From positions 354,717 to 418,716 of the forward strand of contig MKSW01000033.1 in the NCBI GenBank assembly GCA_001897425.1: a stretch of 64,000 nt of DNA. The letters are read 5' to 3'. The DNA comes from Actinobacteria bacterium 69-20. Lineage in GTDB: Bacteria; Actinomycetota; Actinomycetes; Mycobacteriales; Nakamurellaceae. The position numbers and the translations under genes are program-made. The notes beneath the pieces are model-generated. The model ran no database searches. It was given only the letters and a program-made list of their open reading frames with translations, and was not told where the DNA came from. The first letter of the stretch is position 1. The number at the start of each line of letters is the position of its first letter. Positions 49,434-64,000 of this stretch are shown piece by piece.

Positions 49434-50071
49434 GCGCCGACGAGTACGAACGGGATCGCGCTGAGCAGTCCGGCGGGCCCGGCCGCGGCGGCCGCCGGGG
49501 CGAGGGTGGCGCCGAAGGGCACCCCCGCAGCGCCCGCGGCGGCACCTGCGGCTGCGGGTTCATACGCGGCACCGGCCGGGGCGGCCGCGGGAGCAGCAAC
49601 CGGCGTGGGCGCCACCCCGCCGACCGGCTTCCTGCCCGTCATCACGTCATCGATGGCCGAGAAGAACAGCCCCGCCGTCTTCTTCGCCACGGACGACAGC
49701 ACCCGCTGCCCGACGCCGCCCGCCGGCCCGCCCACGGTCGCGGTGGCGTCGTAGGACAGTTGTGTGGTCCCGTCGCCCTGGTCGGTGAGCGTCACGCCGA
49801 CCGTCGTATCGATCGTCCCGGGGCCGCCGGCGCCGGCCGCGCGCATGGTGAGCTGCGTCGGCGCCGTCATGTCGTACAGCTTCACCTCGCCCGCGTACGT
49901 GCCGCGGATCGCCGCGACGCCCATCGATACGGTGAGCGCGAAGTGGTTGTCCCCCAAGGGCTTCAGCTCCTGGCAGCCCGGGATCACACCGGCCAGCACG
50001 GCCGGGTCGGTGATGGCCGCCCACACCTTGTCCGGCGCGGCGTGCAGCACCGAGGTCCCTGCGATCTTCAT
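49379..50071 (-). CDS. CoxG-like SRPBCC carbon monoxide dehydrogenase subunit G family
   Basis: MKIAGTSVLHAAPDKVWAAITDPAVLAGVIPGCQELKPLGDNHFALTV; Pro/Ala linker and C-terminal TM AIGVLLGAKIARRR. Confidence 0.9.
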   Translation of the reverse strand: MKIAGTSVLHAAPDKVWAAITDPAVLAGVIPGCQELKPLGDNHFALTVSMGVAAIRGTYAGEVKLYDMTAPTQLTMRAAGAGGPGTIDTTVGVTLTDQGDGTTQLSYDATATVGGPAGGVGQRVLSSVAKKTAGLFFSAIDDVMTGRKPVGGVAPTPVAAPAAAPAGAAYEPAAAGAAAGAAGVPFGATLAPAAAAAGPAGLLSAIPFVLVGAAAVAIGVLLGAKIARRR

Positions 50072-50118
50072 GGACGGTCCTTTCGATCAACGCTCGCGTT
50101 CGGGTCGGGCAATATCGC

Positions 50119-52620
50119 CTATGACGATGTATCCGCGCTTTTCTTCGTTCGGGTCGCCGCGCCCCGGCGGGCACGTGTCGCGGCCGACGGGCTCGCCGCG
50201 TACCGCTCCACATGCGGCAACTCCCCGGCGGCGAAGCGCTCGTGCAACCGGTAGAGGTCGTTCGGCGAGATCGGCATCGAGTCGACCGGGAAGCCGACCG
50301 CATCCTCGATCGCCGAGGCGATGAGCGCCGATACCGGGATCACCCCGGCCTCGCCGGCGCCCTTGACCCCGATCGGGTTGAGCGGCGAGGGCGTCTCCTG
50401 GTGCCCGAGCTCCAACTGGCCGAGCTCCTTCTGCGGGATCTCCGTGACGTACGGCATCAGGAAGTCCATGAACGACGCGTTCTGCAACTGGCCGTCCTCG
50501 TCATACTCCATCTTCTCGTACAGCGCGCCGCCGATGCCCTGCGCGACGCCGCCGTGCACCTGCCCGGCCACGATCATCGGGTTCACGAGCCGGCCGCAGT
50601 CGTGCACCACGTAGTACTTGTCGATGTGGATGTCGAACGTCTCCGGATCGATCTCCACGACCGCGGCGTGCATTCCGGAGGCGAACGTGGACCGGGGCGG
50701 CGAGTAGTAGTCCTTGCCCTCCAGGCCAGGCTCGTCATCCTCGGCGACCGGCGGCTTGTCGAAGTCGTCCACGCCCTGGAACTGGGTCGCGGCCTGGGCG
50801 GCCTTGTCGAACGCGTAGCGGAGCGGGTTGGAGAGCACCGCCACCGTGCCGAGGTCGATCTTGGTGTCTGGCGCGCCCTTCATCTGCACCACGCCGTCGA
50901 CGATCTCCAGGTCGTTCTCGTTGCATTCCAGCGCGTTCGCGGCGACCCGCAGTGCCTTGGCCTTCGCCGCGCGCGCTGCGAGGGCGACCGCGGAGCCCGA
51001 CATCACGGCAGTGCGGGAGGCGAAAGTCCCTACGGCGTAACCGAACCGGCGGGTATCGCCGGTCACCACACGGATCTTCTCGAACGGAACCCCCAGCTCG
51101 TCTGCGGTGATCTGCGCCAGCATCGTCTGGTGCCCCTGGCCTTGCGACGTGAGACCCGTTGCCACATCGACGGTTCCGTCCGTCTGGATGTGCACATGGG
51201 CGCCCTCGTACGGCCCCACGCCGGTGCCCTCGACGTAGCAGGCCATGCCGACGCCGAGCAGCTTCCCCCGCGACGCGGCGTCCGCGCGACGCTCGCCCAT
51301 CGAGTCCCAGCCGATCATGTCCTTGAGCATGGTGAGCTGGTGCGGGTAGTTGCCGGAGTCGTAGATCAGCGGCCGGCCATCCTGGAAGATCAGGCCCTGG
51401 TCGTACGGAAACTCGTCGGGCTGGATGAAGTTCGCCGCCCGCACCTCGGCCCGATCACGACCCAAGGCCTGCGCGATCTTGTCCATGGTGCGTTCCATCA
51501 CGAACACGCCCTGCGGCCGGCCGGCGCCGCGATACGGCGTCACCTGCACGGTGTTCGTGTACATCGAGTAGAAGTCCACCCGGTAGGCCCCCGGCTTGTA
51601 CGGGCCGAGCAGCTGCGTCGAGGTGATGATCGGGTTGATGATGCCGTACGGGGTGAAGGCGCCGTTGTCGTGGTAGAAGAGCACGTCCAGCGCGGTCACC
51701 ACGCCGTTGTCGTCGAAGCCGACACGGACATGATGATCCTGCCCGCGCTCGTGCGACGCGGAGATGAAGTGCTCGCGGCGGTCCTCCGCCCACTTCACCG
51801 GTTGTCCCAGCCGGATGGCCGCGAACGGCACCATGATCTCCTCGGGCCACGGGTGGGCGATCTTCACGCCGAACCCGCCGCCCACGTCCGGCGCGATCAC
51901 TTCCACCTTCAGCAAAGGGATCTCGAGTTTCGCGGCGATCGCGGCGCGCACCGACGTCGAGGCCTGCGTGGAGGAGTACACGCGCAGCGAGGAGTCGTCC
52001 GCATCCCACTTCGCGTAGACGCCTTTCCCTTCCAGCGGCGTGGACGCCGATCGCTCGACGTGCAGATCGAACTCCAGGGTGTGCGTCGCCTTCGCGAAGC
52101 CCGCGTCGAGATCACCGACCGTTTGCAGCAGGTGCGCGGAGATGTTGTCCGGAACGTCGTCGTGGGCATGGCGCTCGGCCGCCCGCGCCATGTCCAGGCT
52201 CGCGACCGCGGGCAGCACCTCGTAGTCGACGACGATCCGCTCAGCGGCATCCTCCGCGAGATAACGGTTCTCGGCCACCACCATCGCCACGGCCTGCCCC
52301 ACGTGGTGCACCCGGTCCTTCGCGAGCGCGTACGGCGTGCGCGGCGCGGTAAGCGCAGGATGCGGGATCAGCACCGGCAACGGCTCGGCGACGGGGCCTG
52401 CGAGGTCCTCGTACAGGTAGATCGCGCGCACGCCCTCCACGTCCAGCGCGTCCGCGATGTCGATCGACCGGATCCGCGCATTCGCGTGCGGGGAGCGCAG
52501 GAAGGCCGCCTCGAGCACCGGCTGCCCGGCGCCGATGTCGTCGAGGTAGTGCCCTTGGCCGGTGGTGAGCCGGATGTCCTCGGTCCGGCGGATCGGTTCG
52601 CCGAAGTACCGCTGCCCCAT
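50119..52620 (-). CDS. Molybdenum hydroxylase large subunit (xanthine/CO dehydrogenase-like, CoxL form II type)
   Basis: GDVGGGFG-like GGGFGVKI, PYRGAGRPQGVFVMERTMD active-site loop, GVKGAGEAGVIPV. Confidence 0.9.
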   Translation of the reverse strand: MGQRYFGEPIRRTEDIRLTTGQGHYLDDIGAGQPVLEAAFLRSPHANARIRSIDIADALDVEGVRAIYLYEDLAGPVAEPLPVLIPHPALTAPRTPYALAKDRVHHVGQAVAMVVAENRYLAEDAAERIVVDYEVLPAVASLDMARAAERHAHDDVPDNISAHLLQTVGDLDAGFAKATHTLEFDLHVERSASTPLEGKGVYAKWDADDSSLRVYSSTQASTSVRAAIAAKLEIPLLKVEVIAPDVGGGFGVKIAHPWPEEIMVPFAAIRLGQPVKWAEDRREHFISASHERGQDHHVRVGFDDNGVVTALDVLFYHDNGAFTPYGIINPIITSTQLLGPYKPGAYRVDFYSMYTNTVQVTPYRGAGRPQGVFVMERTMDKIAQALGRDRAEVRAANFIQPDEFPYDQGLIFQDGRPLIYDSGNYPHQLTMLKDMIGWDSMGERRADAASRGKLLGVGMACYVEGTGVGPYEGAHVHIQTDGTVDVATGLTSQGQGHQTMLAQITADELGVPFEKIRVVTGDTRRFGYAVGTFASRTAVMSGSAVALAARAAKAKALRVAANALECNENDLEIVDGVVQMKGAPDTKIDLGTVAVLSNPLRYAFDKAAQAATQFQGVDDFDKPPVAEDDEPGLEGKDYYSPPRSTFASGMHAAVVEIDPETFDIHIDKYYVVHDCGRLVNPMIVAGQVHGGVAQGIGGALYEKMEYDEDGQLQNASFMDFLMPYVTEIPQKELGQLELGHQETPSPLNPIGVKGAGEAGVIPVSALIASAIEDAVGFPVDSMPISPNDLYRLHERFAAGELPHVERYAASPSAATRARRGAATRTKKSADTSS

Positions 52621-53208
52621 CTACGCGTCACCCTTTGCGTGCTCGTCGGCGGTGAACCCCTCGTCCGGGAGCGGCGCGTCCGGGTTCTCCATCAGCTCGG
52701 CCGCGCGCAGCACCGCCTCGACGATGTTCTGATACCCGGTGCAGCGACACAGGTTTCCGGAGATCATGTCAACGGCCTGCTGCGCCGTCGGGTGCGGGTT
52801 CTCGGCGAGACCCGCGGTGATGGTCGTCAGCATGCCGGGCGTGCAGAACCCGCACTGCAGCGCGTGGCAGTCGCGGAACGCCTGCTGCACCGGGGAGACC
52901 TTGGTGGTGCCGTCCGGCTGTAACTGACCCAGACCCTCGATCGTGGTGATGGAATGCCCGCTCACCGTCGCCGCGAACAGCAGGCAGGAGCGCACCGGCA
53001 GGCCGTCGAGCAGCACCGTGCACGCGCCGCAGACCCCGTGCTCGCAGCCGACATGCGTTCCCGTCAAAGCCAAGTCGTGCCGCAGGAAGTCCGCCAGCGT
53101 CCGCCGCACGTCGACCTCGGCCGACCGATGCACCCCGTTCACCGTCAACTCGACGACGCGCCGCGTCTCGCCCGGCACGGCCGTCCCCGGCGTTACCGAC
53201 GTCGTCAT
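52621..53208 (-). CDS. 2Fe-2S subunit of molybdenum hydroxylase (CoxS-like)
   Basis: GTHVGCEHGVCGACTVLLDG...QCGFCTPGMLTT...NLCRCTGYQNIVEAV. Confidence 0.94.
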   Translation of the reverse strand: MTTSVTPGTAVPGETRRVVELTVNGVHRSAEVDVRRTLADFLRHDLALTGTHVGCEHGVCGACTVLLDGLPVRSCLLFAATVSGHSITTIEGLGQLQPDGTTKVSPVQQAFRDCHALQCGFCTPGMLTTITAGLAENPHPTAQQAVDMISGNLCRCTGYQNIVEAVLRAAELMENPDAPLPDEGFTADEHAKGDA

Positions 53209-54086
53209 GCCGCTTGCTCCTCTCGAACCCTCGCCAGCGCCTCGCGGATCGCGCGAACGGCGAGGATCCCGGTGATGTGCCGCCGGTAGTCGGCCGAGGC
53301 ATGGATATCGTCCTGCGGGTCGATCGCGGCCCGCACCACGGCCATGACGCTGTCCTCGCCCGCGGCCCACGCGTCGGAAAGGTCCAGCACCAAAGGAGTT
53401 TCGGACACCGATAGGAACCCGCAGCTCACGCTGATGGTCGGCGCCCCTTCGTCCCTGGACGGTCCGGGTATGACGACCGCGCCCACGCCGGACAGCGCGT
53501 AATCTCCGTGTCGGCGCGCCATCTCGACGAACGCCGTCCCGGCGCCCGCCGGAGCCGCGGGGAAGAAGGCGGACAGTGCCAGCTCGTCGGCGGCCAGCGA
53601 GGACTCCAGCGGCCCGACGAAGAACTCGGCCGCCGGGATCTCCCGCTCGCCGCGCACCGAGACCGCAGTGACAGAGCCGCCGGTGAGGACGAGCACCGCC
53701 GTCATCTCGCCGGACGGATCGGCGTGCGCGAGCGAGCCGACGGTGGTGCCGCGGTTGCGAATGGTCGCGTGCGCGACCAGGTTCAGCGCCTGGCTGAGCA
53801 GCGGCTGCACCCGGTTCGCCTCCGCGTGCCGCAGCAGCTCCGCGTGCCGCACCAGCGCACCGACCCGAACGCCCGCGCTCGACACGTCGATGGCGTCCAG
53901 CCCGGCGACACCGTTGATGTCGACCAGGTGCCCTGGCTCGGCGAGCCGCATCGCGAGGACGGGCACCAGGGACTGGCCGCCCGCCAGCACCTTCGCGTGC
54001 TGCCCCTCGGCTTCCAACGCCGCGAGCGTCGCCACGGCCTGCGCCACGGTATGCGGCGCATACATGCGGAAGGGAGCAGGTTTCAT
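53205..54086 (-). CDS. FAD-binding subunit of molybdenum hydroxylase (CoxM-like)
   Basis: MKPAPFRMYAPHTVAQAVATLAAL...AKVLAGGQSLVPVLAMRL...ATIRNRGTTVGSLAHADPSGE. Confidence 0.93.
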   Translation of the reverse strand: MKPAPFRMYAPHTVAQAVATLAALEAEGQHAKVLAGGQSLVPVLAMRLAEPGHLVDINGVAGLDAIDVSSAGVRVGALVRHAELLRHAEANRVQPLLSQALNLVAHATIRNRGTTVGSLAHADPSGEMTAVLVLTGGSVTAVSVRGEREIPAAEFFVGPLESSLAADELALSAFFPAAPAGAGTAFVEMARRHGDYALSGVGAVVIPGPSRDEGAPTISVSCGFLSVSETPLVLDLSDAWAAGEDSVMAVVRAAIDPQDDIHASADYRRHITGILAVRAIREALARVREEQAA

Positions 54087-54320
54087 GGTTTGATCCTGCC
54101 TCAGTCCCACGCCTTGCGTGACGGACGTAACCTGCCAGCCCGGTCCGGGTTCCGTGGTGAATGGTGCCAGTTACCGGCACCGGGGTACGGCCGGTCGCGG
54201 GAATGGCTGCGGGGCCAGACCTCTCGCTGCGAGAGGCCCGGCCCCGCCGGTACTGCCTGACGAATCACCATGCCGGCGGGGAACCCGCCGCACATAGCGT
54301 CATAGTCGGTTGTTGATTGC

Positions 54321-55796
54321 TTACTTCAGATCGGGCTCCACATCCTGACCGCGATTCGACGGGATCTGGCCGGAGGAGTCGTACACGTCGCCGGCATTGA
54401 TCCCGGCACCGCCCGCGTACGCCTTACCCCGGGCCTGCTCCTCTTTGCGCAGGTGCGGCGCGATCCAGCGGCACAGGTGGTAGAGGACGACGAGCACGAT
54501 CGTGCCGAGCGCGATGCCCGAGATCTCGAAGTCCTTGGTGAAGATGATCGCCACGTTGCCGACGCCGATGATGATGCCGGCGGACAGCGGAACCAGGTTC
54601 TGCGGGGCACCGAAGTTGACGCCCGACTCGACCCAGATCTTCGCGCCGAGTAGGCCGATCATGCCGTACAGAATCACCGTGATACCGCCCAACACCCCCG
54701 GCGGAACCGACGAGACCGCCGCGCCGAACTTCGGCGAGAAGCCGAACAAGATCGCCACGATCGCGGCCACGTAGTACGCCGCCGTCGAGTACACCTTGGT
54801 GGCCGCCATGACGCCGATGTTCTCCGCGTAGGTGGTGGTCGGCGAGGCACCGATGAAGCCGGCGATCGTGGTGGCGACGCCGTCACCGATGAAGCCGCGG
54901 CCCAGGTACGGGTCGAGGTTCTCGCCCGTCATCTCGGAAACGGCCTTGACGTGGCCGGTGTTCTCCGCGATCAGCGCGATGACGCCCGGGACGACCAGCA
55001 GGATGGCGGTCGCCGAGAACGTCGGCAGGTGCGGGCCGGTCAGCACGCCGGACTGGGTGGTGATGTCGGTCGGGAAACCGAACCAGTGCGCGCTGGAAAC
55101 GGACGAGAAGTCCAGCCGCCACACCTTGCTGACGGTGCCGTCGGCCGCGGTCTCGCTGATCTTCCCGAAGACACTGTCGAACAGCCAGGAGATGAGCACG
55201 CCGAAGATCAGGCCCAGGAAGATCGCGATACGCGACCAGAAACCCTTCACGGCCACGGCGAAGACCGTCACGAAGATCATGACGAGGACGGCCGTCCACT
55301 GGTCCTTCGGCCAGTAGGCGCTCGCCACCACCGGGGCCAGGTTGAAGCCGATGAGCATGACGACGCCACCGGTGACGGCCGGCGGCAGCACCTTGGCGAC
55401 TATCCCGCCGCCGGCGAAGTGCACGATCACGCCGACGATCGCCAGCAGCACACCCGCGGCCAGGAAGCCGCCGGTGACTTCGGCGCTGTCGCCGCCCTGC
55501 GCCCGGATCGCGGTGACGGCGCCGACCAGCGAGGCCGAAGTGCCCAGGTAGGACGGGATCTTCCCGTTCACGATGAGCAGGAACATGATCGTGGCGAAGC
55601 CCGACATCATGACGGCGTATTGCGGGTTCAGGCCCATGATGATGGGGAACACGAAGGTCGCCCCGAACATGGCGAATACGTGCTGTGCGCCGAGGCCGAT
55701 GGTGCGCGGCCAGCTCAGCCGTTCACCAGGCGCGACGACTTCCCCTTCCGGGATGGCGCGACCATCCCCTTTGAGCTTCCAACCGAAAGCTGACAT
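54321..55796 (-). CDS. NCS2 family uracil/xanthine permease
   Basis: AQHVFAMFGATFVFPIIMGL...NTGHVKAVSEMTGENLDPYLGRGFIGDGVATTIAGFIGASPTTTYAENIGVMAATKVYS. Confidence 0.94.
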   Translation of the reverse strand: MSAFGWKLKGDGRAIPEGEVVAPGERLSWPRTIGLGAQHVFAMFGATFVFPIIMGLNPQYAVMMSGFATIMFLLIVNGKIPSYLGTSASLVGAVTAIRAQGGDSAEVTGGFLAAGVLLAIVGVIVHFAGGGIVAKVLPPAVTGGVVMLIGFNLAPVVASAYWPKDQWTAVLVMIFVTVFAVAVKGFWSRIAIFLGLIFGVLISWLFDSVFGKISETAADGTVSKVWRLDFSSVSSAHWFGFPTDITTQSGVLTGPHLPTFSATAILLVVPGVIALIAENTGHVKAVSEMTGENLDPYLGRGFIGDGVATTIAGFIGASPTTTYAENIGVMAATKVYSTAAYYVAAIVAILFGFSPKFGAAVSSVPPGVLGGITVILYGMIGLLGAKIWVESGVNFGAPQNLVPLSAGIIIGVGNVAIIFTKDFEISGIALGTIVLVVLYHLCRWIAPHLRKEEQARGKAYAGGAGINAGDVYDSSGQIPSNRGQDVEPDLK

Positions 55797-56042
55797 GTAG
55801 ATCCTCCGACCCGAGGTCTTCGGTCGGCCGCGTGATTGCTGCCGCCCGCGTCGGCGGCACGGGCGCCACCGATCTTCACACGGACCGTATGCCGCACGTC
55901 ACAGGAAACTCGTTGTGTGCACCTGCCAGTGTCACGCCTCGGTATTGGTGGAGAGTGACCTATCGCACGGTGTCGGGTGCCTGACATCGGCGCAACCTTC
56001 GGTGCCGCTGCGCGTCCGCGGCGGGTCTCCTCGCGGATGACG

Positions 56043-56480
56043 TCACACGAGCTCCACGTCGCAAGGCAGGCTCGGTGCGGCGCCGAGTCGGCTGTCTGCC
56101 GTGATCAGCGGGATCTGCAGTGCGACAGCGAGTGCGACGTACAGCGCGTCGTAGAACGTCAGGTTGTGGCGCAAAGCCCATGCGGCTTCGGAGAGAGCAC
56201 GGCCGTGCGCGTACCGACGGTCGATCAGCACCCGTGCCGCACGAAGAGCGTCGATCGCCTCGACCGACGCGAGCAAGCCGACACGTTCGTGTCGGCGCAA
56301 GACGTTGCCGACCTCCGCGTCGATCAGATGCGGAGCGTGCGTGCGGATCTGCGACATCCGGGACCTCAGCGCCGCCGCGTCGGCGCTTTTCCCGCCGACG
56401 GCGAACGCCAGCGCCGAGGCATCGATCACCCGATCGGTCGGGTCCGGAGGTCGGCCCTCGCTGCCCGAGGCGTGCGTCAC
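56043..56480 (-). CDS. VapC PIN-domain toxin
   Basis: VIDASALAFAVGG...APHLIDAEVGNVLRRHERVG...YDALYVALAVALQIPLITADSRLG. Confidence 0.9.
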   Translation of the reverse strand: MTHASGSEGRPPDPTDRVIDASALAFAVGGKSADAAALRSRMSQIRTHAPHLIDAEVGNVLRRHERVGLLASVEAIDALRAARVLIDRRYAHGRALSEAAWALRHNLTFYDALYVALAVALQIPLITADSRLGAAPSLPCDVELV

Positions 56481-56713
56481 CGGCGGTCTGCGACGAGAGC
56501 GGCGAGTACGGATTCGCGGGTCGCACCGGGCGTGGACACTGCGGCGAGCCGCTCCTCCAGGGCCGCGAGAGCTTCCCGGGCGGTCGGCGTGCTGGCCATG
56601 TCGATCACCTGCTCCCGCATATACGACTGGATGGATCGTCCCTCGGCGCGCGCGCGGCGGCGAATGACCTCGTACGCCTCTTCGGGCAGGTCACGGATCT
56701 GAATCGTCGCCAT
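56477..56713 (-). CDS. VapB/FitA-like ribbon-helix-helix antitoxin
   Basis: MATIQIRDLPEEAYEVIRRRARAEGRSIQSYMREQVID. Confidence 0.9.
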   Translation of the reverse strand: MATIQIRDLPEEAYEVIRRRARAEGRSIQSYMREQVIDMASTPTAREALAALEERLAAVSTPGATRESVLAALVADRR

Positions 56714-56786
56714 GGGGTGATGGTAGCGCTATTTCAGCGCTGTAGCGCGATTGCTCGACGGACGGTCCCGCGCAGGTCGGCACGCC

Positions 56787-57100
56787 GGGTATGACGATGT
56801 TCGGTGGCCGCGGTCGTGCTGCGTCGTTCTGCGTCGCGCTGGCCGGTGGGGCGGGCGCGTGTTGACCGTCACTGTCCTTGTCAACCGAATTGTCGCTGCC
56901 TGTGCCGATGACCGAGCGAGTTCGGTCGCCGCGGCGGAGCCGACCGGCAGTGCACATCGGCGCGTCGACGGGTCCTAAACTCACGAATCTGACGCCGGGG
57001 GGTCCGGCGGAATCAACTACTCGCGGTAACTGACTCTGCTCAGTTCCGTCGGCGGTGCGCAGTGCCCGTGGGCGGATCGGCTTGTGGCGATCAGAACGAC
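56787..57100 (+). repeat. Dispersed repeat B copy 1 (~310 bp)
   Basis: Begins at TATGACGATGTTC; shares GACCGTCACTGTCCTTGTCAACCGAAT..., CCGGCAGTGCACATCGGCGCG, GGAATCAACTACTCGC, CTGACTCTGCTCAG, CCGTCGGCGGTGCGCAGTGCCC with 61521-61826. Confidence 0.92.
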
Positions 57101-59915: not shown

Positions 59916-60149
59916 ATGGCTACCGACACAACAACAGTCCGCGTCCGGCGACCGGACTCCGAGCGCCTTCAATCGCTTGCCAAGGACCGGCAGGCCACGG
60001 TGATCGACGTGGTGCATGAGGCCATCGACGCACTGGAGCGGCGCGAGTTCCTACGCGGGCTCGATGGTGATTACCAGCGCCTGCGCGATGACCCCGAGCG
60101 TTGGCAGCAGTACTTGGCCGAACGCGCCGAGTGGGACACCCTGGCTTGA
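59916..60149 (+). CDS. MazE-like antitoxin
   Basis: MATDTTTVRVRRPDSERLQSLAKDRQATVIDVVHEAIDALERREFLRGLDGDYQRLRDDPERWQQYLAERAEWD. Confidence 0.85.
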   Translation: MATDTTTVRVRRPDSERLQSLAKDRQATVIDVVHEAIDALERREFLRGLDGDYQRLRDDPERWQQYLAERAEWDTLA

Positions 60150-60481
60150 CCTGGCGCGGGGAGGTCTACCACGTCGACCTCGGCAGACCGATCGGCCACG
60201 AACCGGCGTTCCGCCGGCCAGCGGTTGTCGTATCCGTCGACGTCCTGAACAACGGTGCGGGCGGGTTGGTGATCGTCGTTCCGGTCACCACCACCGGGTA
60301 CGGGCTTCGCAGCCATGTCGAGCTGGAGCCGGAGCACAGCGGGCTCGACCACACCTCGTACGCCCGCTGCGATCAGCTGCGGGTCGTCTCGACCGAACGC
60401 ATGACGACCCGGCAAGGGATGATCGCGCCGGGCACGATGCGACTGATCGATCAAGCCCTGCGGTTCGTCCTCGATCTCTGA
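60146..60481 (+). CDS. MazF/PemK-like toxin
   Basis: TTG start overlaps antitoxin TGA; LTWRGEVYHVDLGRPIGHEPAFRRPAVVVSVDVLNN...VVPVTTTGYG...CDQLRVVSTERM. Confidence 0.9.
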   Translation: MTWRGEVYHVDLGRPIGHEPAFRRPAVVVSVDVLNNGAGGLVIVVPVTTTGYGLRSHVELEPEHSGLDHTSYARCDQLRVVSTERMTTRQGMIAPGTMRLIDQALRFVLDL

Positions 60482-60527
60482 CCGGCCACCTGTTCGCGGC
60501 GCGGCCACGGAGTCTAACCGCAGAGTA

Positions 60528-60752
60528 ACGCACGGTAATCGCGCTGGAAAATGCCCACGCGACCAACCGCAGCCGAGAAGTACTCGTCGCGAGCCAGTGC
60601 GGCAGCGTCAACGCGCCGACCGGCTCGGGACCGTATCGGGTCGGGACCATCGAGTATGACGATGTTCCGTGGCCGGACCGTTCGAGAACCCCTGCCCGCC
60701 GGGGCGGGCCCGGCACGAAACGTCGTCATACTCGGGGAGACCCGCGCGGACG
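60528..60752 (+). repeat. Dispersed repeat A copy 1 (~225 bp)
   Basis: ACGCACGGTAATCGCGCTGGAAAATGCCCACGYGACC...GTGCGGCAGCGTCAACGCGCCGACCGGCTC...CATCGAGTATGACGATGTTCCG...CGTCGTCATACT.GGGGAGACCCGCGCGG shared with 63146-63372. Confidence 0.95.
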
Positions 60753-60761
60753 CGGGCAGAG

Positions 60762-61199
60762 CTATCCGGCGACTCGGAGGGGATCGGACCAGCGCAGGTT
60801 CGGGAAGCGGGCGAAACCGCTGTCGTGGGATTGCAACTCCAAGCCGTGGCCGAGGGCGAGCGCGGCGAGGTGCACGTCCGGGACGTCGTCCGACTTCAGG
60901 CCGGGCGTCGTGAGCAGGTGCTCGACGAGCGCGGCGTGGTCGGGCGTGGCCGTCGGCACCCAAGCCACCGGGGAGGACAACCACTGCTGAACCTGCTGCC
61001 AGGCCTGCGGCATCGTCACGGCATCACGAAACATTCGGACGTTCGTCGCCAACCGTACGAAAGACATCGTGACTTCCCAAGGCAGTCCGACGCGATGCGG
61101 CCCGCCGAGAACCCCCTCGAACCACGAGAGGGCGGCTTCGTGCTCGCTCGCGCGGCTATCAAACGCGTAGACGAGAAGGTTGGTGTCGACGAGGATCAT
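60762..61199 (-). CDS. VapC PIN-domain toxin
   Basis: MILVDTNLLVYAFDSRASEHEAALSWFEGVL...VPDVHLAALALGHGLELQSHDSGFARFPNLRWSDPL. Confidence 0.92.
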   Translation of the reverse strand: MILVDTNLLVYAFDSRASEHEAALSWFEGVLGGPHRVGLPWEVTMSFVRLATNVRMFRDAVTMPQAWQQVQQWLSSPVAWVPTATPDHAALVEHLLTTPGLKSDDVPDVHLAALALGHGLELQSHDSGFARFPNLRWSDPLRVAG

Positions 61200-61459
61200 G
61201 AGCGCGGCGGGTGAGCGAGATGGGCGTACTTCTCCTCGTCGAGCATCGCGATCACGGCGCTCACATCGGCGATGTCCACCCTCGCACCGAGGGGGCGCGG
61301 GTGCGTGTAGACGACCTTCGCATCACCCGCCGGCGACGCCGGGTGCAGGCCCGCGCGCAGCGTCTCGTTGAGCACGGCCTTGAAGCTGCGCCGCTCCGCA
61401 CGCTGGCGCGCGACGAGCTCGGCTGCCACATCATCGTCCAAGGTCACGGTGGTTCGCAT
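61196..61459 (-). CDS. VapB-like ribbon-helix-helix antitoxin
   Basis: MRTTVTLDDDVAAELVARQRAERRSFKAVLNETLRAGL. Confidence 0.9.
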   Translation of the reverse strand: MRTTVTLDDDVAAELVARQRAERRSFKAVLNETLRAGLHPASPAGDAKVVYTHPRPLGARVDIADVSAVIAMLDEEKYAHLAHPPRS

Positions 61460-61520
61460 GCGTCACATCATATCGTTGATGCGTTGATGCGTGATGGGAA
61501 TCGTCGAGAGCGGGATTTTC

Positions 61521-61826
61521 GAGTATGACGATGTTCCGCGGTGGGCCTAGTCTGCGAAGCCCTGGCCGGCAGGGGCGGGCGCGTACTGACCGTCACTGTC
61601 CTTGTCAACCGAATCGTCGTCGTCTGTGACGATGACCGAGCGAGTTCCGTTGCCACGGTGGGGTCGACCGGCAGTGCACATCGGCGCGCCGGCGGGTTCT
61701 AAACTCGCCAATCTGACGCCGGAGAGCAGCCGGAATCAACTACTCGCAGTGACTGACTCTGCTCAGCTCCGTCGGCGGTGCGCAGTGCCCATGGGCGGAT
61801 CCTTCAGCGATGTCGCGGTCAGAACG
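61521..61826 (+). repeat. Dispersed repeat B copy 2 (~305 bp)
   Basis: See copy at 56787-57100; also shares ~60-bp core with repeat A copy 2. Confidence 0.92.
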
Positions 61827-62283
61827 GTGACATCTGGTCCAGGATCTTCTCGGCGATGCCGAGAATGTCTTTCACCCTCGGGATGTCGTCTTCGACGTCC
61901 TCGGTCGTAAGCTCCGGTGCATCCGCCGGCGGGTACTCCGCGTCGCGTCGGTGGCGCCGCATGCGGTCGAACGGCCGCAGCTGCTGACCCATCGGCGGAT
62001 CAAGCTGCGCGCGGACTGCGTGGTAGGCCGCCAGGTGGCCGCCAGCGGTGGTCGGCCGGAGGCCCTGGTTCTCCAGGATCGACCACAGCGCTTTGCGGGC
62101 GGCGTCGTAGAGCAGCGCATAGGCACCCTCGGGGTCGGCGTCTGCTGTCCGTATGGCGCTGACCAAGTGCCGTCGCGCCTGAGCCAACACGCGATCGGCG
62201 TGCTCGCGGCTGGCCGGGACCCGCTGCAGATGCTTGTCTGCGAGCAGCTTTTCGATCTCTGCGCGGCCCTGGTCCCACCTCAT
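61819..62283 (-). CDS. HEPN-domain protein (SAV_6107-like) of HEPN-MNT TA module
   Basis: MRWDQGRAEIEKLLADKHLQRVPASREHADRVLAQARRHLVSA...DAARKALWSILENQGLRPTTAGGH...FDRMRRHRRDAEYP; adjacent MNT gene. Confidence 0.8.
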   Translation of the reverse strand: MRWDQGRAEIEKLLADKHLQRVPASREHADRVLAQARRHLVSAIRTADADPEGAYALLYDAARKALWSILENQGLRPTTAGGHLAAYHAVRAQLDPPMGQQLRPFDRMRRHRRDAEYPPADAPELTTEDVEDDIPRVKDILGIAEKILDQMSPF

Positions 62284-62885
62284 CGACCCACCTCGGTATC
62301 GGTGACGGCCAGCTCGATCAACGGGCGCGACCGGATCGACGACAGGAACGCGTCGGCGTTCGGCGGCTGCTCCCACACGCTCGCACGCACGCGTCGGATG
62401 TTCACCTCGCGGCCGCCGAGACGGCGTTCGGCACGCTGGGCGGCAAGGTCAAGATCGTCAGGGTCGGCATCGCCGACGACCAGTACGTCGACGTCGTTCG
62501 GCGGCGGGCCTGCTTCGCCGCTGTAGCGAGCAGCCCAAGATCCATACAAGAACGCCTTCCCGATCCCCGGAACCTTCCGCAACTCCTCGGTCAGGACCGG
62601 CATCGGCCCGTAGGTCACCACGAGCAGGTCGGTCAACGGCCGACTCAGCAGCGAATCGGTCACGGCCCGCACCAGGCGGTTGTTACCTTGGCGCCGATCG
62701 GCCAGGATCCGCGCGACGACCAGACGGTCTACTTCCTGCTGCGTCGCCTTCACCGACGCGCCGATGCGACGGGCAGCCTCGGTGACGGTGTACTCCTGCT
62801 CTGGGTTCAGGTAGGTCAGGGCGAGGAGGTTGCCCTGGACCTGGGAGCGCAGCAACGGCAGCAACGCCGGCGGTTCAGCTCTCAT
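62280..62885 (-). CDS. MNT-type nucleotidyltransferase antitoxin with N-terminal wHTH
   Basis: AFLYGSWAARYSGEAGPPPNDVDVLVVG (GSx..DxD); ATGA overlap with HEPN gene. Confidence 0.87.
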   Translation of the reverse strand: MRAEPPALLPLLRSQVQGNLLALTYLNPEQEYTVTEAARRIGASVKATQQEVDRLVVARILADRRQGNNRLVRAVTDSLLSRPLTDLLVVTYGPMPVLTEELRKVPGIGKAFLYGSWAARYSGEAGPPPNDVDVLVVGDADPDDLDLAAQRAERRLGGREVNIRRVRASVWEQPPNADAFLSSIRSRPLIELAVTDTEVGR

Positions 62886-63145
62886 AAGACTTCCATCTTC
62901 CTATACCTCATAGGTGAATTGCAAGGCGATGGTGCCAGGTGGCTCGGCTGACTTGGCCGCAAGCGAACTCGCTACGGGACGTCGAGGGTCCGGGCGAGGT
63001 TGGGTCCGCACAAGTGGATCTCCATCACCGTATGGACCGCCCGCTGCTCGTCGCCGGGACACGGGCGTCCTGCGGTACCGCGGTGTCCGGTGCAGCAAAG
63101 CCGTCGGGCGCGTCGCCGGACGTACCCCTGAGCGGCCGCAGATCT

Positions 63146-63372
63146 ACGCACGGTAATCGCGCTGGAAAATGCCCACGTGACCGACCGCAGCCGAGAGGTA
63201 CTCGCCGCGAGCCGGTGCGGCAGCGTCAACGCGCCGACCGGCTCAGGACCGCATCGGGTCGGGTCCATCGAGTATGACGATGTTCCGGGGTGGGCCTCGT
63301 CCGCAAAGCCCCGGCCGGCGGGGCGGGCGCGGCGCGGAACGTCGTCATACTGGGGAGACCCGCGCGGGCGCG
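63146..63372 (+). repeat. Dispersed repeat A copy 2 (~225 bp)
   Basis: Same orientation as 60528-60752; contains inverted TATGACG...CGTCATA pair at 63273 and 63337. Confidence 0.95.
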
Positions 63373-63446
63373 CGCCGTCGCGCCGACGAGTGCCGCTCTC
63401 GGCCCATTGGCGACGAGCCGCGGGAGAACGGACGAACGAAGGCCGT

Positions 63447-64000
63447 ATGACGGATACAGACGTGCCAGGCAACTACGGCCCGAACGGCCGCATCCTGGAC
63501 GGCCCCGGCCCGCGCAGCATCATCCTGGACTGCGACCCCGGCCACGACGACGCGTTCGCGATCATGCTGGCGCGCGGTAGCCCCGGCATCGACCTCAGGG
63601 CGATCACCACGGTCGCCGGCAACCAGACGCTGGAGAAGGTGACCCGGAACGCGCGGGCGGTCGCGACGATCTGCGGCATCACCGGCGTGCCGATCGCGGC
63701 CGGCGCGGCGGCACCGCTGGTCCGCCCGCTGCGGGTCGCGGCCGACATCCACGGCGCCTCGGGCATGGACGGGCCGGCGCTCCCCGCTCCTACGGTTCCG
63801 CTCGACCCGCGGCACGGCGTGGACGTCATCGTCGAGACGGTGCGGTCGCAGCCGGCCGGCAGCATCACCCTGGTGCCGACCGGGCCGCTCACCAATATCG
63901 CGCTGGCGGCCCGGCTCGCACCCGACATCGTGGGCCGCGTGCGGGAAGTCGTGCTGATGGGCGGCGGCTACGGCGGCGGGAACGTGACGGCCGCGGCCGA
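63447..64000 (+). CDS. Nucleoside hydrolase (inosine-uridine preferring), truncated by window end
   Basis: Not in ORF track. MTDTDVPGNYGPNGRILDGPGPRSIILDCDPGHDDAFAIMLARGSPGIDLRAITTVAGNQTLEKVTRNA...TLVPTGPLTNIALAARL...VLMGGGY. Confidence 0.93.
   Translation, partial: MTDTDVPGNYGPNGRILDGPGPRSIILDCDPGHDDAFAIMLARGSPGIDLRAITTVAGNQTLEKVTRNARAVATICGITGVPIAAGAAAPLVRPLRVAADIHGASGMDGPALPAPTVPLDPRHGVDVIVETVRSQPAGSITLVPTGPLTNIALAARLAPDIVGRVREVVLMGGGYGGGNVTAAA

Follow-up and report, generated by a model that had tools for sequence, protein, structure and literature searches.

In this work, we analyzed a toxin-antitoxin (TA) locus within a 64,000-nt stretch of DNA from Actinobacteria bacterium 69-20 (the window; its own genome, of 4.48 Mb, is called G000 below). 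Direct copies of a repeat alternate there with a vapBC and a HEPN-MNT gene pair, in the order repeat (A1), vapBC2, repeat (61520), HEPN-MNT, repeat (A2). The locus is probably a short array of repeat-bounded cassettes, and comparison with a related genome suggests that HEPN-MNT was gained or lost as a unit when direct copies of the palindrome-bearing repeat recombined. An earlier note on this DNA had proposed a TA cassette moved by recombination between its flanking repeats. The recombination part agrees with the single-repeat empty sites found in the relative, at this locus and at three more, whereas the placing of the ends at the outer A copies, and the grouping of vapBC with HEPN-MNT as one unit, found no support.

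A single repeat in the sister genome

The nearest relative compared, and the sole close one, is Nakamurella sp. HJP_bin23 (G003), a metagenome bin that shows complete identity to JAFIHI01 at three loci, over stretches of 2.6-3.4 kb. In G003, the genes of window positions 50001-56016 are followed by a motif-bearing repeat, vapBC1, an ArsR and SRPBCC gene pair, a half repeat, vapBC2, one intact repeat and the nucleoside hydrolase. vapBC2 is common to both genomes, while HEPN-MNT, the second copy of repeat B (B2) and the left segment of A are missing from the G003 locus. The single intact repeat stands in place of the copies at 61520 and 63269, and its flanks match those of the copy at 61520 on the left and of the copy at 63269 on the right; therefore, the unit that differs between the species is bounded by these inner repeats and not by the outer A copies. 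The sequence changes over from the left to the right copy at a 17-bp word (17-mer) described below, or close to it. The earlier note had suggested looking in relatives for a single-repeat site devoid of TA genes, and G003 does hold one repeat without HEPN-MNT, although vapBC2 is kept. As to the prospect, also raised there, of a repeat A found only here together with a block invariant in relatives, the block varies in G003.

False joins at the single-repeat junctions of G003 appear less likely, because the contig names (k141) point to an assembler word length greater than these junctions. No substantial DNA match to HEPN-MNT was found in the other congeners, and protein relatives of MNT are patchy across the genus. 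As an outgroup at this locus, congener G014 (400 kb sampled) offered synteny limited to the nucleoside hydrolase. The ArsR and SRPBCC pair, which in G003 lies between vapBC1 and vapBC2 (L068:7467-8561), is ~335 kb off in G000 (C33:78664-79775).

The two A copies are noncoding and in direct orientation, as had been noticed before, but their identity, 88% across 240 bp and 92% in the first 155 bp, falls short of near-identical, and their ends lie slightly further out than had been drawn. vapC-vapB, B2 and HEPN-MNT all lie between them, together with a half repeat (61520-61585) that had been overlooked. The BLASTN search proposed at that time recovered full-length A only twice in the whole genome (E 2e-122 and 4e-81), a match far above chance, and no copies of A were found among plasmid records. 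Each copy is composite, with ~133 bp on the left, common to A1 and A2 only and 91.7% identical, and an ~84-bp palindrome on the right with inverted ends CGAGTATGACGATGTTC ... GAACGTCGTCATACTCG, the right arms varying at one or two bases. These 17-bp ends, unlike A as a whole, are members of a genome-wide dispersed word family (consensus CGRGTATGACGMYGTTC). The idea that A is mobilized as a non-autonomous element does not hold for its full length, as the left 133 bp occur only here; the palindromic core, which does belong to a dispersed family, is at most a candidate for mobility.

Bracketed modules elsewhere were sought in 2.0 Mb of G000 (~45% of the genome), with genes called by a home-made codon-usage caller and modules identified by Pfam where checked and by sequence inspection for the remainder. 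The sample holds 32 mainly intergenic direct-repeat pairs within 6 kb, against none in the 400 kb of G014 (Poisson p 0.002 relative to the G000 rate), and many of the 32 flank TA, AAA/DUF4143 or Fic modules. Of 30 PIN loci, 4 have bracketing repeats within 3 kb, compared with 28 of 1728 other genes (Fisher p 0.0018) or with 12 of 460 when only small genes are counted (p 0.012). The bracketing repeats are locus-specific and 40-290 bp long, and arrays reach three repeats and two modules. No core or consistent inverted repeat is common to the repeats of different loci, and most lack the 17-mer. A common fold was rejected as well, the repeats being overall no different from other intergenic DNA, although some contain a second palindrome of 64 bp.

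The outer flanks of seven bracketed loci were sought in G003, and all 32 pairs were compared with the available G003 DNA; besides the focal locus, four were decidable. In three of them G003 has the left flank, one repeat and the right flank with no module: mazEF on C1 (1725 bp in G000 and 127 bp in G003, with a repeat of 140 bp), the RES-Xre and mazEF array on C13 (4454 and 74 bp; repeat 71 bp) and the AAA/DUF4143 and Fic array on C33 (3212 and 92 bp; repeat 83 bp). At all three, the G003 left flank matches the first G000 copy and the right flank the last one. At the fourth locus, on C22, the same repeats are occupied in both species, by Phd-PIN and AAA/DUF4143 in G000 and by an RHH-type VapBC in G003.

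Some further observations were made on these repeats and modules. The second dispersed palindrome (~64 bp, with 16-18-bp inverted ends, CGCCGAGCGGTGCGAAATT...) flanks genes at several G000 loci (C1:28030, C1:85091 and 87854, C3:125277 and 131052, C6:158446 and 159521). A PIN gene at C3:231227-231577 has a 324-bp direct repeat on its flanks, with 98% identity. TA turnover between G000 and G003 is high.

A 17-bp word dispersed in two congeners

Exact copies of CGRGTATGACGNNGTTC number 316 in G000 and 253 in G003, and none occurs in 15 other congeners; the other genomes of the order that were searched hold at most one each, and a reversed-pattern control was near zero. When up to two mismatches to a 14-bp core are allowed, G000 has 974 copies versus 34 for the control. 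The density in G000 is about one site per 4 kb, and no words in the G000 sample are more over-represented than those that the 17-mer supplies. The 2.0 Mb contain 162 exact sites, 55% of them in intergenic DNA, which makes up 11.7% of the sequence (p 3e-40), and convergent intergenic regions are enriched (30% vs 16%, p 3e-5). A GC-rich hairpin follows many copies. Most copies are solitary, with little flank similarity past the short hairpin and a slight excess of inverted partners; since most are solitary, a palindromic miniature inverted-repeat transposable element (MITE) was rejected as the general unit. A polar motif, of the FtsK-orienting polar sequence (KOPS) or Chi type, was rejected because the two strands carry the word about equally often (166/150 exact sites genome-wide) and both orientations are mixed along contigs. 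No comparable word of its own was found in the 400 kb of G014, and the literature searched yielded no Actinobacteria repeat matching the word.

Between G000 and G003, invariant word positions changed in 7 of 238 cases and flanking positions in 221 of 1740 (p 7e-7), and the three degenerate positions of the word change freely; as judged from this comparison, the word is under constraint between the two species. In trmD (L185:19010-19957; C3 in G000) it lies inside an in-frame insertion of 30-40 residues, present in G000 and G003 and not in the other congeners aligned. When two word sites lie within 6 kb of each other, their flanks are similar more often than those of distant pairs (11x downstream, 39x upstream), and in these alignments such local sharing is a signal of local duplication. 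The word was rejected as a dedicated TA attachment site, there being no excess near PIN genes: 11 of 30 PIN loci lie near a 17-mer, with 10.0 expected (p 0.42), and they are no closer to it than other small genes.

By analogy with the known kinds of dispersed sequence, an uptake-type recognition sequence would fit the word best. The DNA uptake sequences of Neisseriaceae (PMC3630211) and the uptake signal sequences of Pasteurellaceae (PMC12616744) are likewise short, non-palindromic words restricted to a clade. They number from hundreds to about a thousand, occur on both strands, favor intergenic DNA and the spaces between convergent genes, sometimes form inverted pairs, are also present within genes and have a stop codon in one frame. 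In contrast to them, the present word is actinobacterial, 17 bp long, mostly solitary and followed by a GC-rich hairpin, and has no receptor assigned to it; ComEC, found in all 17 congeners, does not discriminate the word-carrying species. With Rickettsia palindromic elements and other MITEs (PMC10969869) the word shares the tolerance of a repeat in frame inside a conserved gene (trmD), but only the 17-mer, and not an ~150-bp element, is conserved between copies, and the word is constrained between species. It is tempting to speculate, although on balance we think it rather unlikely, that CGRGTATGACGMYGTTC might have a function, as a clade-specific recognition sequence whose nearest likeness is a DNA uptake sequence. 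It would have originated in one Nakamurella branch and would mark own DNA for uptake or recombination, thereby aiding the exchange of repeat-bounded TA and defense cassettes between related species by homologous recombination.

Proposed recombination between repeats and its alternatives

The case for recombination is made at the level of the structure of these loci; RecA dependence, circles and a direction are our inference. In the process that we propose, RecA-type recombination would integrate a circle or donor segment holding B2, HEPN-MNT, the left part of A and the repeat by one crossover in a resident repeat, giving two repeats; in the reverse reaction, the module would be deleted and one repeat left. 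The outer A-A similarity would be a by-product, because the incoming unit would have brought with it a copy of what lies before the repeat. The single-copy empty sites, the chimaeras of left and right flanks and the arrays of n modules with n+1 repeats seen here are as expected from recombination between direct repeats.

Several points weigh against this reading. Gain and loss are indistinguishable because there is only one close relative in the comparison, itself a metagenome bin. The copies within one locus differ by 7-24%, so that a recent single crossover would need an old duplication or a diverged donor. Besides, the gene caller was home-made, the list of bracketed loci is one sample covering 45% of the genome, and the empty-site loci other than the focal one were pre-selected, being picked because their modules are repeat-bracketed. 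In addition, three TA-like insertions specific to G003 (GNAT/RHH, mazEF and RES-Xre) have no detectable flanking repeats; repeats would therefore be dispensable for TA turnover, and one route among others.

If the arrays are old, the modules may have been present in the ancestor and deleted in G003 by recombination or slippage between repeats, with no mobility involved. The single copies of G003 resemble left-copy/right-copy chimeras, as a deletion leaves, and divergence among the copies at one locus often equals or exceeds that between the two species, which fits an old duplication. Loss is thus a real possibility, even if not the one that we favor: HEPN-MNT is patchy in the genus, gain must occur too given the different C22 modules between the same repeats and the TA insertions of G003 itself, and the repeats must still have arisen at an insertion. 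In site-specific recombination, the repeats would serve a recombinase as attachment sites, and either the 17-mer or the palindrome would be the core that it recognizes, as in integron cassettes or Xer/pdif modules. The TA-rich succession of modules and repeats resembles both of these, and the focal left/right switch lies at or near the 17-mer; nevertheless we consider this explanation quite unlikely, as the loci have no core in common, most repeats are devoid of the 17-mer or a consistent inverted repeat, PIN loci do not lie closer to the 17-mer than other small genes do, and no integrase was noticed in the window region, although the whole genome was not searched for one.

A word as dense as the 17-mer (~1 per 4 kb) will often flank any intergenic module by chance, and PIN loci indeed have no excess of nearby sites. 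Coincidence is very improbable all the same, because the similarity, which is local, covers 240 bp at A and 71-160 bp elsewhere and so reaches far past the 17-mer, and because four loci differ between the species by precisely one repeat plus module(s). We give even less credit to a composite transposon or MITE pair, in which the A copies would be mobile ends that brought the block in. Even though A has at its core a palindrome of ~84 bp, whose 17-bp inverted ends come from a family of hundreds of sites, full A was found at two places only and at no others as a mobile element. The family consists mostly of solitary 17-mers, whose flanks have little in common past a short hairpin, and since vapBC is in both species, the block between the A copies did not move as one piece. 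Furthermore, the Y1/RAYT transposase (PF01797) has no match in the genome, on which ground a repetitive extragenic palindrome (REP)/RAYT system was rejected too, and no short target duplication was seen.

Genes of the array and known systems

The features are listed in Table 1. The array has accessory genes on one side and the conserved nucleoside hydrolase on the other. On sequence grounds, its modules are ordinary type II (vapBC) and HEPN-MNT TA pairs; the HEPN and MNT genes are adjacent and of known families, and the pair matches the candidate defense family PDC-M05. Further copies of repeat B, 78% identical, are found at C13:64004 and C13:65432, flanking a gene beside a RES-Xre module. Most of mazF (window 60211-60506) has a second copy, 96% identical, ~105 kb away at C33:520254-520549. 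No known RNA families were found within 56-64 kb of the window.

Table 1 Features of the focal array (window positions) and of other loci (contig and position in G000 or G003).
Feature	Location	Strand	Remarks
vapBC1 module	56043-56713	-	PIN 56043-56480, FitA-like RHH 56477-56713 (Pfam); conserved in G003
Repeat B copy 1 (B1)	56786-57078	+	begins with exact 17-mer; upstream of vapB1
mazE-mazF module	59916-60481	+	Pfam PemK E 5e-24; immediately left of A1; absent from G003 locus
Repeat A copy 1 (A1)	60518-60757	+	left part 60518-60650 (A1/A2 only), palindromic core 60651-60734
17-mer CGAGTATGACGATGTTC, left palindrome arm of A1	60651-60667	+	exact
Inverted 17-mer, right palindrome arm of A1	60718-60734	-	1 mismatch
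vapC2, PIN-domain toxin	60762-61199	-	Pfam PIN E 2.5e-7; TIGR00028 E 4e-35; ortholog adjoins half repeat in G003
vapB2, antitoxin	61196-61459	-	by position and overlap; no Pfam or NCBIfam match
Middle half copy of repeat core	61520-61585	+	exact 17-mer; between vapB2 and B2; left end of HEPN-MNT unit
Repeat B copy 2 (B2), body	61584-61802	+	88% to B1 body
HEPN-domain toxin	61819-62283	-	PADLOC candidate PDC-M05B; Pfam HEPN E 1e-4; PADLOC E 4e-11
Winged-helix and MNT nucleotidyltransferase antitoxin	62280-62885	-	PADLOC candidate PDC-M05A; PADLOC E 2e-47
Repeat A copy 2 (A2)	63136-63375	+	left part 63136-63268, palindromic core 63269-63353; right end of HEPN-MNT unit
17-mer, left palindrome arm of A2	63269-63285	+	exact
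Inverted 17-mer, right palindrome arm of A2	63337-63353	-	1 mismatch
Nucleoside hydrolase	63447-64000	+	continues beyond window; Pfam IU_nuc_hydro E 1e-56; conserved right-hand anchor
mazEF	G000 C1:28133		bracketed
Second HEPN-MNT pair	G000 C1:75132		bracketed
vapBC	G000 C3:104182		bracketed
RES-Xre and mazEF	G000 C13:65767-67745		bracketed
Phd-PIN and AAA/DUF4143	G000 C22:55703-57898		bracketed
AAA/DUF4143 and Fic	G000 C33:233125-235822		bracketed
RES-Xre	G000 C33:400687		bracketed
GNAT/RHH insertion	G003 L124:3647-4838		TA-like, G003-specific
mazEF insertion	G003 L121:2915-3738		TA-like, G003-specific
RES-Xre insertion	G003 L102:2428-3907		TA-like, G003-specific

Chromosomal integron arrays consist of TA-rich modules alternating with repeats. 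The same alternation of TA-rich modules and repeats is found here, but the repeats differ by locus and have no attC-like common core or structure. In Acinetobacter, the Xer/pdif modules are small accessory modules, often TA, that are shuffled between repeated sites (PMC12907356, PMC6449649). Whereas the short Xer sites at the ends of pdif modules resemble one another from module to module, the repeats described here are 40-290 bp long, locus-specific and direct.

Insertion with long target duplication has been described for restriction-modification genes (Nobusato et al. 2000, Gene 259:99, cited in PMC3031569 and PMC4978471). As far as these citing papers relate it, both cases involve a self-serving module between long direct repeats and were proposed from two related genomes. 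The single-repeat empty site that such an insertion implies in a related genome is seen here at the focal, C1, C13 and C33 loci. Set against the same account, our modules are TA, AAA/DUF4143 and Fic genes of an actinobacterium, the arrays reach three repeats and two modules, the repeat copies are quite diverged and the focal repeat contains a dispersed palindrome. The repeats are locus-specific, as expected of target-type repeats, but the focal one and several others contain dispersed palindromes.

By this analogy, the repeat-bounded exchange of TA and defense modules resembles the known long-target-duplication insertion, and the clade-specific 17-bp word would be its most novel part. How TA and defense modules move without transposases or integrases is largely an open question, and four loci with a precise single-repeat empty state in the sister genome make gain, loss and exchange measurable. 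A constrained word with ~1000 approximate copies, in two of 17 congeners, makes the uptake-sequence hypothesis testable outside Proteobacteria.

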